From assembly GCA_947037125.1 (NCBI GenBank), contig CAMQTJ010000004.1, positions 1 to 64,000 of the forward strand: DNA of 64,000 bases. The letters are read 5' to 3'. The notes under the pieces were generated by a model. It did no database searches. It worked only from the letters and a program-made list of their open reading frames with translations, and was not told where the DNA came from. The position numbers were made by a program, and so were the translations under genes. How positions within the stretch are numbered: the first letter of the stretch is position 1; each line of letters begins with the position of its first letter. The stretch is from an uncultured Holdemania sp. Its GTDB lineage: Bacteria; Bacillota_I; Bacilli_A; Erysipelotrichales; Erysipelotrichaceae. Positions 3,685 through 64,000 of this stretch are shown piece after piece.

Positions 3685-4555
3685 TTGACCAACGTCCATA
3701 AATTCCACAAGGTAAAATTAATTTAGACTTAGATAAAGGTAAACCAATTTCACCAGCTTCAATTGTTCCAAATGGATATTTTTTAAAGACTGTCATTTTT
3801 AAGATATTTTCTAATACTGTTGCAGAAAAACCTGTAGTATAAGAATTAACTAAGAAGAAAATTGCATCTTGATCTAAAATATCAAGTGATTTTGATACTA
3901 ATTCATTGATTTGTTCTTCTAATTTCCAAACTTCTTTATTTGGACCACGACCATAACTTGGTGGATCCATTACTATACCATGATATGTTCTACCACGTCT
4001 TTTTTCACGTTCCACAAATTTAATACAGTCTTCAATAATAAATCTAATTGTATTATCTTCGAGTCCGCATAATTTCGCATTTTCTTTAGCCCATTGAGTC
4101 ATCCCCTTAGATGCATCAACGTGTACAACCTCAGTTGCACCAGCTGCACTACAAGCACAAGTTGCACCACCTGTATAGGCGAATAAGTTTAAGATTCTAA
4201 TTTCTTCAAGATTCGAATTCTTGATTTTTTTAGTCATCCAATCCCAATTACAAGCTTGTTCAGGAAATAATCCTGTGTGTTTAAATCCTGTAGGACTTAC
4301 TTTAAAAGTAAGGTTTTTATATTTAATTGTCCAGTGCTCTGGTAAATGGTTTTTAAAATCCCATGTACCTCCACCACTTTTTGCACGATGATAATGTCCA
4401 TCAACATTGTTCCATAATTTCTCGTTAAATGTTGTAGGCCAAACTGCTTGAGGATCAGGTCTTCTAAGTGTCACGTTTTTCCAACACTCTAATTTTTCAC
4501 CATTTCCTGCATCTATTACTTCATAATCAATCCATTGATTAGCTATTTGTTGCAT
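3677..4555 (-). CDS. Class I SAM-dependent rRNA methyltransferase, RlmI/RlmK-like (COG1092)
   Basis: 292 residues. The SAM-binding motif I is ILNLFAYTGGATCACSAAGA followed by VVHVDASKGM (motif II Asp). The catalytic motif IV is MDPPSYGRG, typical of COG1092 23S rRNA methyltransferases related to RlmI/RlmK. The N-terminal PUA-type region of full-length RlmI is absent, as in many short Bacillota homologues, and is replaced by about 90 residues rich in Trp. It is the first gene of the minus-strand unit; its stop overlaps the start of the pseudouridine synthase, so two rRNA-modification enzymes are translationally coupled. An AAGGATGTGAT stretch precedes the ATG at 4555. Confidence 0.85.
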   Translation of the reverse strand: MQQIANQWIDYEVIDAGNGEKLECWKNVTLRRPDPQAVWPTTFNEKLWNNVDGHYHRAKSGGGTWDFKNHLPEHWTIKYKNLTFKVSPTGFKHTGLFPEQACNWDWMTKKIKNSNLEEIRILNLFAYTGGATCACSAAGATEVVHVDASKGMTQWAKENAKLCGLEDNTIRFIIEDCIKFVEREKRRGRTYHGIVMDPPSYGRGPNKEVWKLEEQINELVSKSLDILDQDAIFFLVNSYTTGFSATVLENILKMTVFKKYPFGTIEAGEIGLPLSKSKLILPCGIYGRWSND

Positions 4556-4687
4556 ATAATCACATCCTTAACTCAAATTATACCATAATCATTGTAATAA
4601 TACATATCGATATTGATTTATTAGCTAAAATAAGATGTTTATCACAAATAAACTTAAAATATTAGGTAAATAATGTATTTATACCTA

Positions 4688-4716
4688 TTGACATAATTAC
4701 TGAATAGGACTAATAT
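4688..4716 (+). promoter_or_regulatory. Sigma-A type promoter of the ytrA-ABC operon
   Basis: TTGACA at 4688-4693 and TAATAT at 4711-4716 with a 17-bp spacer, about 40 nt upstream of the GntR gene. Confidence 0.85.
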
Positions 4717-4735
4717 TGTATTAGTTACTTAATAC
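4710..4735 (+). promoter_or_regulatory. Overlapping dyad operators, probable YtrA-type GntR binding site
   Basis: Two interlocking inverted repeats: CTAATA-TTG-TATTAG (4710-4724) and GTATTA-GTTACT-TAATAC (4718-4735). They cover the -10 box and the start region, where repressor binding would block transcription. Assignment to the GntR protein encoded just downstream is inference from position. Confidence 0.65.
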
Positions 4736-4753
4736 AGTGATACAGGAGGTAAT

Positions 4754-5116
4754 ATGGACTTTAAATTTACAAATGATCGGCCAATCTATTTGCAAATAAT
4801 TGAACAAATAAAAGATGACCTAATTTCAAATAAACTAAAACCTAATGAGAAAATGTTATCGGTAAGAGAACTTGCAATCAGTGCAAATGTTAATCCTAAT
4901 ACCATGCAAAAAGCATTGCAAGAATTAGAAAAAGAAGGGTTAATTATTACTCAGCGTACAGTTGGTAGATATGTTACAAATGATGTGGAATTAATTAAAA
5001 ATATTAAAAATGATGTTGCTAAAAAACATACAGATGATTATTTAAATAAAATGAACCAACTAGGTTATAGTTTTGATGAAATAATGAAAATAATAAGGGA
5101 GAATACACATGAATAA
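4754..5116 (+). CDS. GntR-family transcriptional regulator, YtrA subfamily
   Basis: 120 residues: an N-terminal winged helix (PIYLQIIEQIKDDLISN, LSVRELAISANVNPNTMQKALQ, EKEGLIITQRTVGRYV) and a short C-terminal helical tail of about 45 residues. This length and the lack of a large effector domain are typical of YtrA regulators, which usually repress the ABC transporter operon they lead and respond to cell-envelope antibiotics in Bacillus. The start has AGGAGGT 4 nt upstream. The stop overlaps the start of the ATPase gene by 8 nt. Dyad operators at the promoter suggest autoregulation. The inducer here is unknown. Confidence 0.9.
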   Translation: MDFKFTNDRPIYLQIIEQIKDDLISNKLKPNEKMLSVRELAISANVNPNTMQKALQELEKEGLIITQRTVGRYVTNDVELIKNIKNDVAKKHTDDYLNKMNQLGYSFDEIMKIIRENTHE

Positions 5117-5813
5117 TATCTTAAGTTGTACTAATATCACAAAAAAATATGGAAATAAAGTAGCACTAGACAATGTAAGTTTTGAAATACAACAAGGTAG
5201 AATTGTTGGTTTATTAGGACCGAATGGTGCAGGTAAAACAACGATTATGAAAATTATTGCAGGATTACTTACTATAAATGATGGTGAAATAAATGTTTGT
5301 GGTAAACAAATTGGTGTTGAATCTAAAAAAATAGTTAGTTATTTATCGGATAAAGAAAATTGTTTTTCAGCTAATGAAACTGTTTTAAGTATAATTCATT
5401 TTTATTCACAATTTTATGAAGACTTTAATATAAATAGAGCAAATGAAATGATTAATAATTTAAAGATTGATCCTAAAACAAAATATAAGGATATGAGTAA
5501 AGGTACTAAAGAAAAGGTGCGTTTAATCATGATTATGAGTCGTGATGCAATGCTTTATGTTCTTGATGAACCAATTGGTGGTGTTGATCCTAGTGCTCGT
5601 GAATACATCATTAAAACAATATTACAATGCTACAATGAAAAAGCTAGTATTTTAATATCAACACATTTAATTGCCGACATTGAAAATGTTTTAGACGATG
5701 CCATTATTATTAAAGAAGGTAAAATAATTGAAAATAGTTCAGTAGAACAATTAAGAGAAAAGCATAATATGAGCCTTGAAGAAATATTTAAGGAGGAATT
5801 TAGATGCTATTAA
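5109..5813 (+). CDS. ABC transporter ATP-binding protein (YtrB-like)
   Basis: 234 residues with one nucleotide-binding domain: Walker A GPNGAGKTT (about residue 38), signature MSKGTKEK in place of LSGGQ (common in this drug/bacteriocin-export group), Walker B MLYVLDEP and H-loop STH. It overlaps the GntR gene by 8 nt and the first permease by 10 nt, so the three are translationally coupled. It is the only ATPase in an operon with four permease genes and must therefore serve all of them. In Bacillus such systems sense or resist wall-active compounds; direction and substrate here are not known. Confidence 0.9.
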   Translation: MNNILSCTNITKKYGNKVALDNVSFEIQQGRIVGLLGPNGAGKTTIMKIIAGLLTINDGEINVCGKQIGVESKKIVSYLSDKENCFSANETVLSIIHFYSQFYEDFNINRANEMINNLKIDPKTKYKDMSKGTKEKVRLIMIMSRDAMLYVLDEPIGGVDPSAREYIIKTILQCYNEKASILISTHLIADIENVLDDAIIIKEGKIIENSSVEQLREKHNMSLEEIFKEEFRCY

Positions 5814-6634
5814 AGCTAATTAAAAATGAAATTAGCTGCACAAAAAAAGTAATAAAAACAATGTATCAAGGGTATTGTTTTTTGATACTGGCAACAATCA
5901 TCTTTACAATGCTTTGTAATGGTCAAAATATTTTCATACAAAATGAAATAACTAGTACTAGTGATATGTTTTTATTAATCTTTTATTCTATTACTCAATC
6001 ATTTTTTGTAATATATTCAGTTGGTATGGTGATAATGTGTATTATATATTCTTGTTTTCGCTTTTATAATAATATGCTTTATGATGATGGTTATGTAATG
6101 ATGTGTCTACCTGTCAAAGCAAAAAATCAAATGCTTGCTAAGTTTATTACAACAATAATGTGGATTATAATCACAATTATCTTAATTTTAATTTCAGGTA
6201 TTTTAGTACAAATGGCAAGTAGTAGTACGACGTTTTTTGATACTATAACTACTCTTTTTACTCCATTTATAAATGATTTTAATTTATTTATGGCTACAGT
6301 TATAATTGCATTATTGTTATTTAGTTTATTATTTTATGTAATTTTAATGATTTATACAGGTATATCAATAGGGACAAGTCGTTTTAAAAATCATCTTGCA
6401 GGTTCAATTACAAGTATAATATTTGTTTCAATAACATCAATAATATTATTTTTTATTGCAACAGGAATTATCAATTATTGTCTTTACCCACAAAGCGCAA
6501 TACTTATTTCTTCTAATAGTATACATCCAATTATTGTAATGATTTTTGTAGCGTTGATAGTTATAAACACAATTTCATTTATTCTATTCAATATTACTAA
6601 CCATTACTTAACTAAAAAATTAAATCTGCAATAA
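5804..6634 (+). CDS. ABC transporter permease 1 (type A of two alternating types)
   Basis: 276 residues with about six hydrophobic segments, starting MLLKLIKNEI. After the second segment it has a conserved block (DDGYVMMCLPVKAKNQMLAKFIT) with a strongly hydrophobic helix after it, as in ABC-2 type permeases. Permease 3 has the matching block GEKGYVTMVLPVSMKN, so 1 and 3 look like the same paralogue type. AAGGAGG lies just upstream inside the ATPase gene. Family assignment is from membrane topology and context; the substrate is unknown. Confidence 0.75.
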   Translation: MLLKLIKNEISCTKKVIKTMYQGYCFLILATIIFTMLCNGQNIFIQNEITSTSDMFLLIFYSITQSFFVIYSVGMVIMCIIYSCFRFYNNMLYDDGYVMMCLPVKAKNQMLAKFITTIMWIIITIILILISGILVQMASSSTTFFDTITTLFTPFINDFNLFMATVIIALLLFSLLFYVILMIYTGISIGTSRFKNHLAGSITSIIFVSITSIILFFIATGIINYCLYPQSAILISSNSIHPIIVMIFVALIVINTISFILFNITNHYLTKKLNLQ

Positions 6635-6658
6635 GCATTATTAATTAAGGAGAAATAT

Positions 6659-7456
6659 ATGTTATTAAAACTTTTAAAATACGAATTAAATAAAACAAAA
6701 TATATGGCACTGACAATATGTATTACATTTTTTTCTTTAGCTCTGCTTTCAACATTATCAAGTAGTTTATATCAATCACTTTTAATAAATGGTTCGTATA
6801 ATGCAACTGACTTTATTATGGTTGTACTTAGTGCATCTTCACATATAGTAATTAATTTATTAATTTGGTTTAAAGCATTTTCACTACTTCAAATATTAAT
6901 TATGTCATGTTTAATTAGTATACCTATATGTCTACATTTAGGAAGCAGTCAAAGAAGTAACATAATCATCTTGCCAATTAAAATGACTTGCCAAGTCCTT
7001 TCAAAAATACTTGTGAATATTATATGGATGACAGTGATTATGATGTTTTATATGTTTATATTAACTTTATTTGGATCAGTAAATAGTTCTAATATGTTAT
7101 TAAGTGATCAACTAAGAGTTATTAATCAATATCTAAGCAATCTTAATATTATTGATATTATGACATTGTTAAGTACTGTGATTTATTGTGCTTCGCTACT
7201 AAATTTATATTTCATTATTGTAAGTAAAAGACCTAGACCTGCAATATTTATGATTGTTATGTATAACACTATCCCAAATATAACGATAATTGTAGGCGGA
7301 ACAATTATATTCTTAATTTCAAGTATAATAAATATAGAAATAATATATTCACCATTTCAGTATTCAATAATTTTAATCATTAATTATTTGATTATTGCAA
7401 TGGGACTTAATGTAATAGCAACTAGATATTTAGATAAACATTTAGATGTAACCTAA
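6659..7456 (+). CDS. ABC transporter permease 2 (type B)
   Basis: 265 residues, about six hydrophobic segments, starting MLLKLLKYEL. The block SSQRSNIIILPIKMTCQVLSK and the later KRPRPAIFMIVMYN resemble permease 4 (GTRNKMMVIPVDNKFHVISK and NKPRKASFLFWFNYM), not 1 or 3. A GGAG site lies upstream of the ATG. It probably pairs with permease 1 and the shared ATPase. Followed by a 77-nt gap, the widest inside the operon. Confidence 0.75.
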   Translation: MLLKLLKYELNKTKYMALTICITFFSLALLSTLSSSLYQSLLINGSYNATDFIMVVLSASSHIVINLLIWFKAFSLLQILIMSCLISIPICLHLGSSQRSNIIILPIKMTCQVLSKILVNIIWMTVIMMFYMFILTLFGSVNSSNMLLSDQLRVINQYLSNLNIIDIMTLLSTVIYCASLLNLYFIIVSKRPRPAIFMIVMYNTIPNITIIVGGTIIFLISSIINIEIIYSPFQYSIILIINYLIIAMGLNVIATRYLDKHLDVT

Positions 7457-7533
7457 AAAGTATTGAAAGTATTAAAAGTATTAATCAATTATAAATTATA
7501 AAGAAATTAGTTTCGATATTAGGAGGGGCAGAT

Positions 7534-8325
7534 ATGTTATTAAAGTTAATTAAAAATGATATAAAACAAACTAAACTTATCGGGTTAGGTATTATAGGAT
7601 TTATGGTTATTACAGGATTATATGTAACTATTACAAGTGGCTCATACAATTATTTAATTGGTAAAGAATATATAATTGAAAATGACTTGATAAGTATATT
7701 CGCTAATATATTTATCTATTCACCAATTATGTTCATCGAATATCTTGAAAGTATAAAAATATTTCCAATATTTATTGCAGTAGGACTTATCCAAATTCCA
7801 TTGATTATTAGTTTAATGGGTGAAAAAGGTTATGTCACAATGGTTTTACCTGTAAGTATGAAAAATATTATCAAATCAAAAATTATTGTAACAATTATTT
7901 GGAGTTTTATCTTTCTAGTATTATTCGAATTATTATTTTTACTAATGATGGCTACAAGTAATAATATAGGAATACTAGAGGCAGTATTTAATCCATATCG
8001 ATTTAATTATGCTATTACTCAAATGTGTCTAAGGATGGCTATGGCGATATATTATACAACACTTGTTTACTTCGCGGTAGTATTTTTAGAAAAGTATAAA
8101 TATTTGGCTTATGGTATTGGGCTTATGCACTTGTGGTTACCTGCTTTTTTTGGAATAGTAACAATACCACTGTTTTCAATTATATATACTAATCAAGAAA
8201 ATTTATTTGAATTAATATCAAATGATCATGCTTATTTATTCGAAACAGTTAATTATTTAGGTACTTCACTAATCTTGTATTTAATAATAGCTTGTAAAGT
8301 AAAAAAAGGAATAAATATAAAATAA
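7534..8325 (+). CDS. ABC transporter permease 3 (type A)
   Basis: 263 residues, about six hydrophobic segments, starting MLLKLIKNDI as in permease 1. The GEKGYVTMVLPVSMKNIIKS block matches permease 1. AGGAGGGG stands a few nt upstream of the ATG, a much stronger site than its neighbours have. With permease 4 it looks like a duplicated copy of the 1-2 pair. Confidence 0.75.
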   Translation: MLLKLIKNDIKQTKLIGLGIIGFMVITGLYVTITSGSYNYLIGKEYIIENDLISIFANIFIYSPIMFIEYLESIKIFPIFIAVGLIQIPLIISLMGEKGYVTMVLPVSMKNIIKSKIIVTIIWSFIFLVLFELLFLLMMATSNNIGILEAVFNPYRFNYAITQMCLRMAMAIYYTTLVYFAVVFLEKYKYLAYGIGLMHLWLPAFFGIVTIPLFSIIYTNQENLFELISNDHAYLFETVNYLGTSLILYLIIACKVKKGINIK

Positions 8326-62574: not shown

Positions 62575-62589
62575 TTGATATAATTCATT

Positions 62590-62627
62590 AGAATAGCTAA
62601 CTAGCGATAGTGGTTATTCTTTTTTTA
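62590..62627 (+). terminator. Terminator of ffh
   Basis: AGAATAGCTA / TGGTTATTCT arms (G-U pairs) followed by seven Ts. Confidence 0.75.
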
Positions 62628-62774
62628 TTATTTATTATTAAGTGAGTAAATAGAAACCAATTTACACAAATAACGGGTTATTTTACTAAGAATTAATTTA
62701 TTGTTGTGAATTATGATATTATATAAGTGTATTAGTAATGAAAATTATTAATAGTTAAACATAAATAAATTTAA

Positions 62775-63373
62775 GGATATTTCAAGCTTAATAAAATAAT
62801 AACTCAATTAAGTCTAAATATTTATAAGTGGTTAAACTTAGAGGAAAAGAAACAAAAACAAGATAAGTTAATGTTAGTAATTATTGAATTATGGATATAT
62901 GATCTAATAACCTTTTTTATTGCATTAATTATGGGTTAATATTTGGCTATTTTGTAGAAACAATTATTTACTTAATCTTTTTTAGTTGGATAAGACAATA
63001 TTGTGGGGGATATCATGCAGATACTCATAATAAGTGTATGAGTTCATATTTTTTATTATATTTATTATTTATTGCATTTCTTTATTATAGTGACTTAACA
63101 CGGAATACACTTATGCTTATAAATGTATTATCTTGTGTTTATATCGTTTGTAATGCACCAGTACAGCACTGTAATCAACCATTAACACTAATTGAACAAA
63201 AAGATAATAGACATAAAGCAATAAGAATTGTTAGTATAGTTATGTTTATTCAAATATTACTTTACTTAATTAATAGTAATTGGTTAATTAACCTTACTAT
63301 TGTCTTGGCTTATAGTGCGATATTAATGATTATTCAAAAAAGAAGTAAGAATTATAGGGGGAATGACATATGA
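62775..63373 (+). pseudogene. agrB: agrB-type peptide-processing membrane protein, frameshifted and without a normal start
   Basis: Two overlapping frames together give a normal AgrB of about 200 residues. Frame one (62775-62939, IITQLSLNIYKWLNLEEKKQKQDK ... FFIALIMG) ends in TAA; frame two, open from 62903 to TGA at 63371, gives IFGYFVETIIYLIFFSWIRQYCGGYHADTHNKC and four more membrane helices. The AgrB catalytic His and Cys (GGYHADT...C) are present. A single -1 shift between 62903 and 62936, where there is a run of six Ts, joins them. No ATG, GTG or TTG begins frame one at the right place. AgrB is the membrane peptidase that matures the AgrD signal peptide. It may be a real pseudogene, an assembly error or a frameshift-expressed gene. 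Confidence 0.75.
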
Positions 63374-64000
63374 AATATACAGTAGCTATTATTGATGATT
63401 GTGTAAATGATATAGTAAAACTTAAACAATTATTGCAACAATATAATGATTCAAGTGAAATAAGTTTTGATATAACTACTTTTAATCATGATGAATATGA
63501 AAAGTTAATTAGTGTAGAATATGATTTATATTTTTTAGATATTGATATGCCCAACAAAGGTGGTTTTGAAATTGCAAGGGCAATTGAAAAGATTTATACA
63601 TCTAGTAAAATAATCTTTTGTTCTTCTAAGGAAGACTTAGTTTTTCAATCGTATGGTAATAATACTTTTTATTTTATACGTAAATCAAATATTAATGATG
63701 ATTTTAATAGATTCATAATAAAACTAAACGAGAATCAAGTGTTGGATAATTATTATATGTATAAAGATAAAAAGATATATTATAAAAACATACTTTACGT
63801 TGATACAAAAATGCATTATATAGTAATACATTTTCATAACAATGATATCATTAAGGACAGAAAGAATATAAAGAGTATTCTAAAACAATTTGAGGATAAT
63901 TATTTTGTGAATGTGGATAATGGGGTATTAGTTAATTTAAAATTTATTAAAAGAATTAACTATGCTAATAACACAATCATTTTAATTAATGATTGTGAAA
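63370..64000 (+). CDS. agrA: LytTR-family response regulator, AgrA type, 5' part (runs off the window end)
   Basis: At least 210 residues from the ATG at 63370, which overlaps the agrB stop (ATGA). Receiver domain: VAIIDDCVND (acidic pair), LYFLDIDMPNKGGFEIA with the phospho-accepting Asp near residue 58, IIFCSSKED and a Lys-like position FIRKSN. From about residue 130 a LytTR DNA-binding domain begins (ILYVDTKMHYIVIHF ... FVNVDNGVLVNLKFIKRI). GGGGG lies upstream inside agrB. It should be activated by an AgrC histidine kinase, which would be downstream of the window. No agrD lies between agrB and agrA. Confidence 0.88.
   Translation, partial: MKYTVAIIDDCVNDIVKLKQLLQQYNDSSEISFDITTFNHDEYEKLISVEYDLYFLDIDMPNKGGFEIARAIEKIYTSSKIIFCSSKEDLVFQSYGNNTFYFIRKSNINDDFNRFIIKLNENQVLDNYYMYKDKKIYYKNILYVDTKMHYIVIHFHNNDIIKDRKNIKSILKQFEDNYFVNVDNGVLVNLKFIKRINYANNTIILINDCE

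Follow-up and report, generated by a model that had tools for sequence, protein, structure and literature searches.

The window is the whole 64,000-nucleotide stretch of DNA analysed and corresponds to positions 1-64000 of contig C4 in a draft genome of 2.49 Mb; it shares the contig's numbering, and C4 itself extends to 69604. At the right-hand edge of the window lies the start of an agr operon with the order agrB-agrA-agrC-agrD, of which agrA, agrC and agrD are fully open reading frames with good ribosome-binding sites and the first gene, agrB, is interrupted. The features, with positions beyond 64000 referring to the contig, are as follows.

62773..62777, forward strand: AAGGA, a Shine-Dalgarno-like sequence of agrB recognised from the sequence and placed as GGAGG is in the related locus L083, where agrB starts with TTG
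62784..62786, forward strand: AAG at the expected agrB start, 6 bases 3' of AAGGA (first lesion, no start codon)
62784..62939, forward strand: agrB 5' piece, 51 codons plus TAA, which can be aligned to the N-terminal part of intact AgrBs and scores 26 bits with our own AgrB HMM, a score that is not independent because the seed alignment included the piece itself
62903..63373, forward strand: agrB 3' piece with GGYH-x6-C; PF04647 at 83.6 bits, H-x6-C kept
62926..62939, forward strand: zone of the -1 frame change (second lesion), where the gapless alignment with intact AgrBs switches frame
63370..64000 in the window, ending at 64068 on C4, forward strand: agrA, a response regulator with LytTR domain, 232 aa; PF00072 and PF04397 above cut-offs
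64072..65376 on C4: agrC, with a GHKL ATPase domain; PF14501 at 58.6 bits, motifs LKHDMKH and HGYGIKN
65440..65559 on C4: agrD-like gene, 39 aa, ...ASWQSMYQPNLKDLQD, behind AGGAGGG, recognised by layout and position

The 5' piece of agrB reads like an AgrB N-terminus for 51 codons from 62784 (KLNKIITQLSLNIYKWLNLEEKKQKQDKLMLVIIELWIYDLITFFIALIMG*) and ends at TAA 62937-62939, and the remainder of the gene is found in a second frame that is open from 62903 to 63370 (...GLIFGYFVETIIYLIFFSWIRQYCGGYHADTHNKC...) and closed by TGA at 63371-63373. A Pfam search matches this second frame to AgrB (PF04647, E 1.4e-23) and gives no match for the 5' piece. An open frame of 156 codons, the longest in the agrB stretch, is not a product of chance, since the longest frames in 2000 base shuffles averaged 44 codons and never exceeded 98. 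At the protein level the two pieces, joined by a -1 step near 62937, align without gaps to intact AgrBs, and the H-x6-C catalytic pair is preserved, as it is in most of the AgrBs surveyed. In the agrB frame there is no ATG, GTG or TTG before 62871, where the first in-frame start, an ATG, is located. An earlier note on this DNA had described agrB as legible in two frames with one -1 shift and no start codon and as overlapped by agrA, and both descriptions hold, the agrA start at 63370 sharing four bases (ATGA) with the agrB stop. The same note pointed to the T-run 62913-62918 and the base at 62936 as sites to compare; the shift is better placed at about 62926-62939 than at the T-run, because as far as IALIMG the first frame is still hydrophobic and in alignment.

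No agrD is found between 62575 and 64000, in line with the earlier note, which saw no small peptide ORF in 62575-62775 or between the genes, and this is an effect of the window edge: both agrC and an agrD-like gene lie further along the contig, one of the possibilities that it had raised. The agrD-like ORF (MKQIIKKIITKMLLSCKVRSLEIASWQSMYQPNLKDLQD) begins with a basic amphipathic segment, places its ring residue five positions before YQP and ends in a charged tail, a layout that matches those of the genome's own AgrDs on contigs C3, C43 and C1 and of the L083 AgrD. NCBIfam model TIGR04223 (AgrD) does not match it, and the same model misses four of ten agrD candidates from related loci. From the layout, the position and the matching L083 peptide we infer that this ORF is agrD, and AgrB (the broken gene, PF04647), AgrC (PF14501) and AgrA (PF00072 and PF04397) are all present beside it. 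Serine is the first residue of the predicted signal ring (S-W-Q-S-M, followed by YQP), and we predict from this residue that the ring is a lactone rather than a thiolactone, a Ser type being common in the host family. The other three agrD products of the genome, CLFFG-YQPKVP on C3, CIYIM-HQPKLP on C43 and SSWLT-YQPEEP on C1, are all accepted by the NCBIfam model.

The last codons of agrD are covered by one copy of a 189-bp direct repeat, 98% identical, at 65534-65722 and 67288-67476 (L005 5535-5723 and 7289-7477), with one exported-protein gene between the copies and another after the second (the two genes span 66382-68156). We considered whether this repeat is a genome-wide element and rejected the idea, as the two copies lie near agrD only and one 26-base partial match is the sole addition. 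A scan for promoters and terminators was uninformative: it detected no terminator, and promoter-like sites were more numerous in shuffled sequence.

The gene order is not unusual, as it had appeared to be from the window alone. We surveyed AgrB-bearing loci of the host family, anchoring on AgrB matches and calling genes with HMMs built here. Of these, 49 loci contain agrA, agrB and agrC uncut by contig ends (a hand tally); B-A-C in one direction is the commonest arrangement (26/49), followed by A-C-B (18/49), and the S. aureus order B-D-C-A occurs at none of the surveyed loci. An AgrB read-through in the wrong frame after the shift was left out of the survey HMM, and the correctly joined protein pieces were used afterwards. 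An intact agrB-agrA-agrC-agrD copy is moreover present on contig C3 of the same genome, and with the family tally this led us to reject an odd gene order at C4. The earlier note had named an agrD directly downstream of agrA as evidence against its reading, and this is nearly what is seen: agrD lies downstream, after agrC.

Across the 49 loci agrB is broken in five, agrC in one and agrA in one. Of these genes agrB is the shortest; the counts are low, they come from an AgrB-anchored survey, and the five include the C4 locus itself. Both agrA and agrC are open at all five, that is, at four loci besides C4. Three loci with agrB broken and agrA and agrC open lie in L084 (G009:C1:506000-521500) and L129 (G204:C4), and two of these three also carry a candidate agrD of the NVSP(R/Q)GYYKP type. 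The proposal that a serine AgrD accompanies loss of agrB was rejected: Ser-type AgrDs stand beside an intact agrB in L066, L068, L099, L104, L112, L114 and L124, and since such pairings are common, the serine does not account for the loss.

The C4 AgrC falls in a clade (99, SH-aLRT, quick tree) with two copies from contig C7 of the same genome (G000) and one from G078:C2, a genome of another genus in the family, and no further members beyond G000 and G078 are found among 273 family and 316 order genomes, the latter set including family genomes. A working local agrB is absent from every known locus of this clade. The locus most closely related to that of C4, G078:C2 (L083), shows the order B-A-C-D with intact agrA and agrC, and encodes a 39-aa AgrD with Ser followed by YQP (MNIIKKFFLSFLINIKARNLTITSSRGLYQPRFKSTTKI), equal to that of C4 in length and layout. 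Its AgrC and AgrB are 36% and 37% identical to those of C4, and agrB is frameshifted in both. The G078:C2 agrB has a TTG start behind a good Shine-Dalgarno sequence (GGAGG) and its frame breaks around codon 115, whereas that of C4 has no start and breaks at codon 51; the different positions mark these as separate events. At a sister locus, G078:C5, agrB is intact.

On C7 (L029, G000:C7:15000-27000; 4674-7668, minus strand) agrA lies between two AgrC paralogues; agrB is absent and no agrD was found there. One AgrC copy retains the ATPase domain and has KNEMNN instead of the phospho-His motif KHDMKH, and the other keeps KHDMRH, is stopped before the ATPase domain and is followed by remnants with stops. 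The two may form a complementary pair or may both be in decay, the idea of complementary half-kinases being weakened by the position of the short copy's stops, which precede the remnants of its ATPase domain. Among other agr pseudogenes are this second agrC with its stops and an agrC with five stops on G078:C3. Taking the clade as a whole, we tentatively entertain, with a good deal of doubt, that it has repeatedly shed AgrB and kept AgrC and AgrA, with AgrD in two of its three loci, either because other AgrBs of the same cell mature the precursor in trans or because the systems have turned into listeners to neighbours.

The two agrB lesions, the missing start codon and the frameshift, would each inactivate the gene and are read from one assembly. 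The genome is a draft in 135 contigs, and no other stop interrupts the agrB frame, so that agrB could be intact in the cell, within an ordinary working operon, and broken only by an error of sequencing or assembly. The earlier note likewise allowed for an indel of this kind. A TruSeq adaptor (AGATCGGAAGAGCACACGTCTGAACTCCAGTCAC) left at the end of contig C1 (L030 8550-8582) indicates that the assembly derives from short Illumina reads, however, and consensus indels are rare in these; two errors of different kinds, one substitution and one indel, would have to fall within about 150 bases, and G078:C2 offers an independent agrB frameshift in another genome. We consider an error decidedly unlikely. 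The adaptor also gives rise to a false N-terminus, SDWSSDVCSSDL, on a truncated agrC at the end of C1.

A programmed -1 shift, in which the glycine tRNA slips from G_GGT to GGG before TAA and translation begins at a non-standard start, would supply a low, controlled dose of AgrB. The sequence ATG GGT TAA does permit such a P-site slip beside the stop, which would yield an AgrB without gaps, but a standard slippery heptamer and a stable downstream structure (fold z = +0.64) are both absent, the G078:C2 shift lies elsewhere (at about codon 115), and the missing start codon goes unexplained. Programmed frameshifting is therefore highly improbable.

Given the Illumina reads, the two unlike lesions and the lack of a programmed-frameshift signal, we think it likely that the C4 agrB is a recent pseudogene, with start codon lost and frame broken, in an otherwise complete agr operon. 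The stop-free read-through with its catalytic pair counts against this, being what is expected of a working gene or of one broken very recently. A variant of the pseudogene reading, with which it shares part of its probability, is that the whole locus is dying, that agrB merely went first and that agrD, agrC and agrA are intact through recency alone and have no signalling role left. Agr pseudogenes are indeed common in these genomes, as on C7 and G078:C3, and the 3' end of agrD lies within the recent 189-bp duplication; the three remaining C4 genes are nevertheless fully open, each with a good ribosome-binding site, and the four other broken-agrB loci likewise retain agrA and agrC. We regard such general decay as unlikely.

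If agrB is a recent pseudogene, the local AgrB would no longer cleave and cyclise the C4 AgrD. Since agrA has its own Shine-Dalgarno sequence (AGGGGGA, spacing about 7), it should still be translated, and AgrC-AgrA could either answer peptides of other cells as a receiver only or be fed by AgrD matured in trans. The genome has three intact AgrBs elsewhere, on C3, C43 and C45. The C45 agrB (L007 3136-3792, G000:C45) is an orphan with no nearby agrD, and its product is closest to the G040 AgrB in the AgrB tree (86); the C1 locus (L030), with the order A-C-D-A and a Ser-type agrD (4342-4467), has no agrB on its contig, although it is near the contig end and an agrB may lie beyond, and its AgrC is closest to the G040 AgrC (91) in the AgrC tree. 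These placements suggest that the C45 AgrB serves C1 in trans, the two perhaps being separated halves of one system, and such a pairing makes it plausible, by analogy, that the C4 AgrD is also matured in trans by another AgrB. Receiver-only signalling, or maturation in trans by the intact AgrB of C3, C43 or C45, is the outcome that we infer to be most likely. At the C4 locus the strain has probably kept the ability to listen and lost the ability to mature a signal of its own, and eavesdropping by the C4 AgrC-AgrA is possible; the proposal that the signal-making side has decayed while sensing is kept thus stands for agrB and fails for agrD, which is still present.

More broadly, agr loci of this host family lose the signal-processing gene while the receptor and regulator stay. 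If the remaining half works, these are natural receiver-only strains, or genomes in which one processing enzyme is common to several precursors, and either would allow tests of cheating and of cross-talk in quorum sensing by peptides.

The C4 locus, from a low-GC bacterium, is a real agr locus with a broken agrB, of a kind already known from S. aureus, in which agr frameshifts are present in more than 5% of genomes and a polyA-tract frameshift in agrB and loss of the agrC start codon are among the natural agr lesions (PMC8768832). It resembles the S. aureus agrBDCA system in its four protein families and in its logic, and frameshifts and start-codon losses are frequent natural lesions there (PMC8768832), but the order is B-A-C-D rather than B-D-C-A, and the recurrent S. 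aureus lesions affect agrA, the agrC start and the region near the agrB end (PMC8768832), whereas those of C4 both fall within 160 bases of the beginning of agrB. In the general agr scheme AgrD is cut and its ring closed by AgrB (PMC3673130). The AgrD of Staphylococcus (pseud)intermedius has a ring-closing serine and gives a lactone autoinducer (PMC3673130), and C4 likewise has serine at this position; its ring and tail (SWQSM followed by YQPNL) are unlike those of that species, and its lactone is a prediction.
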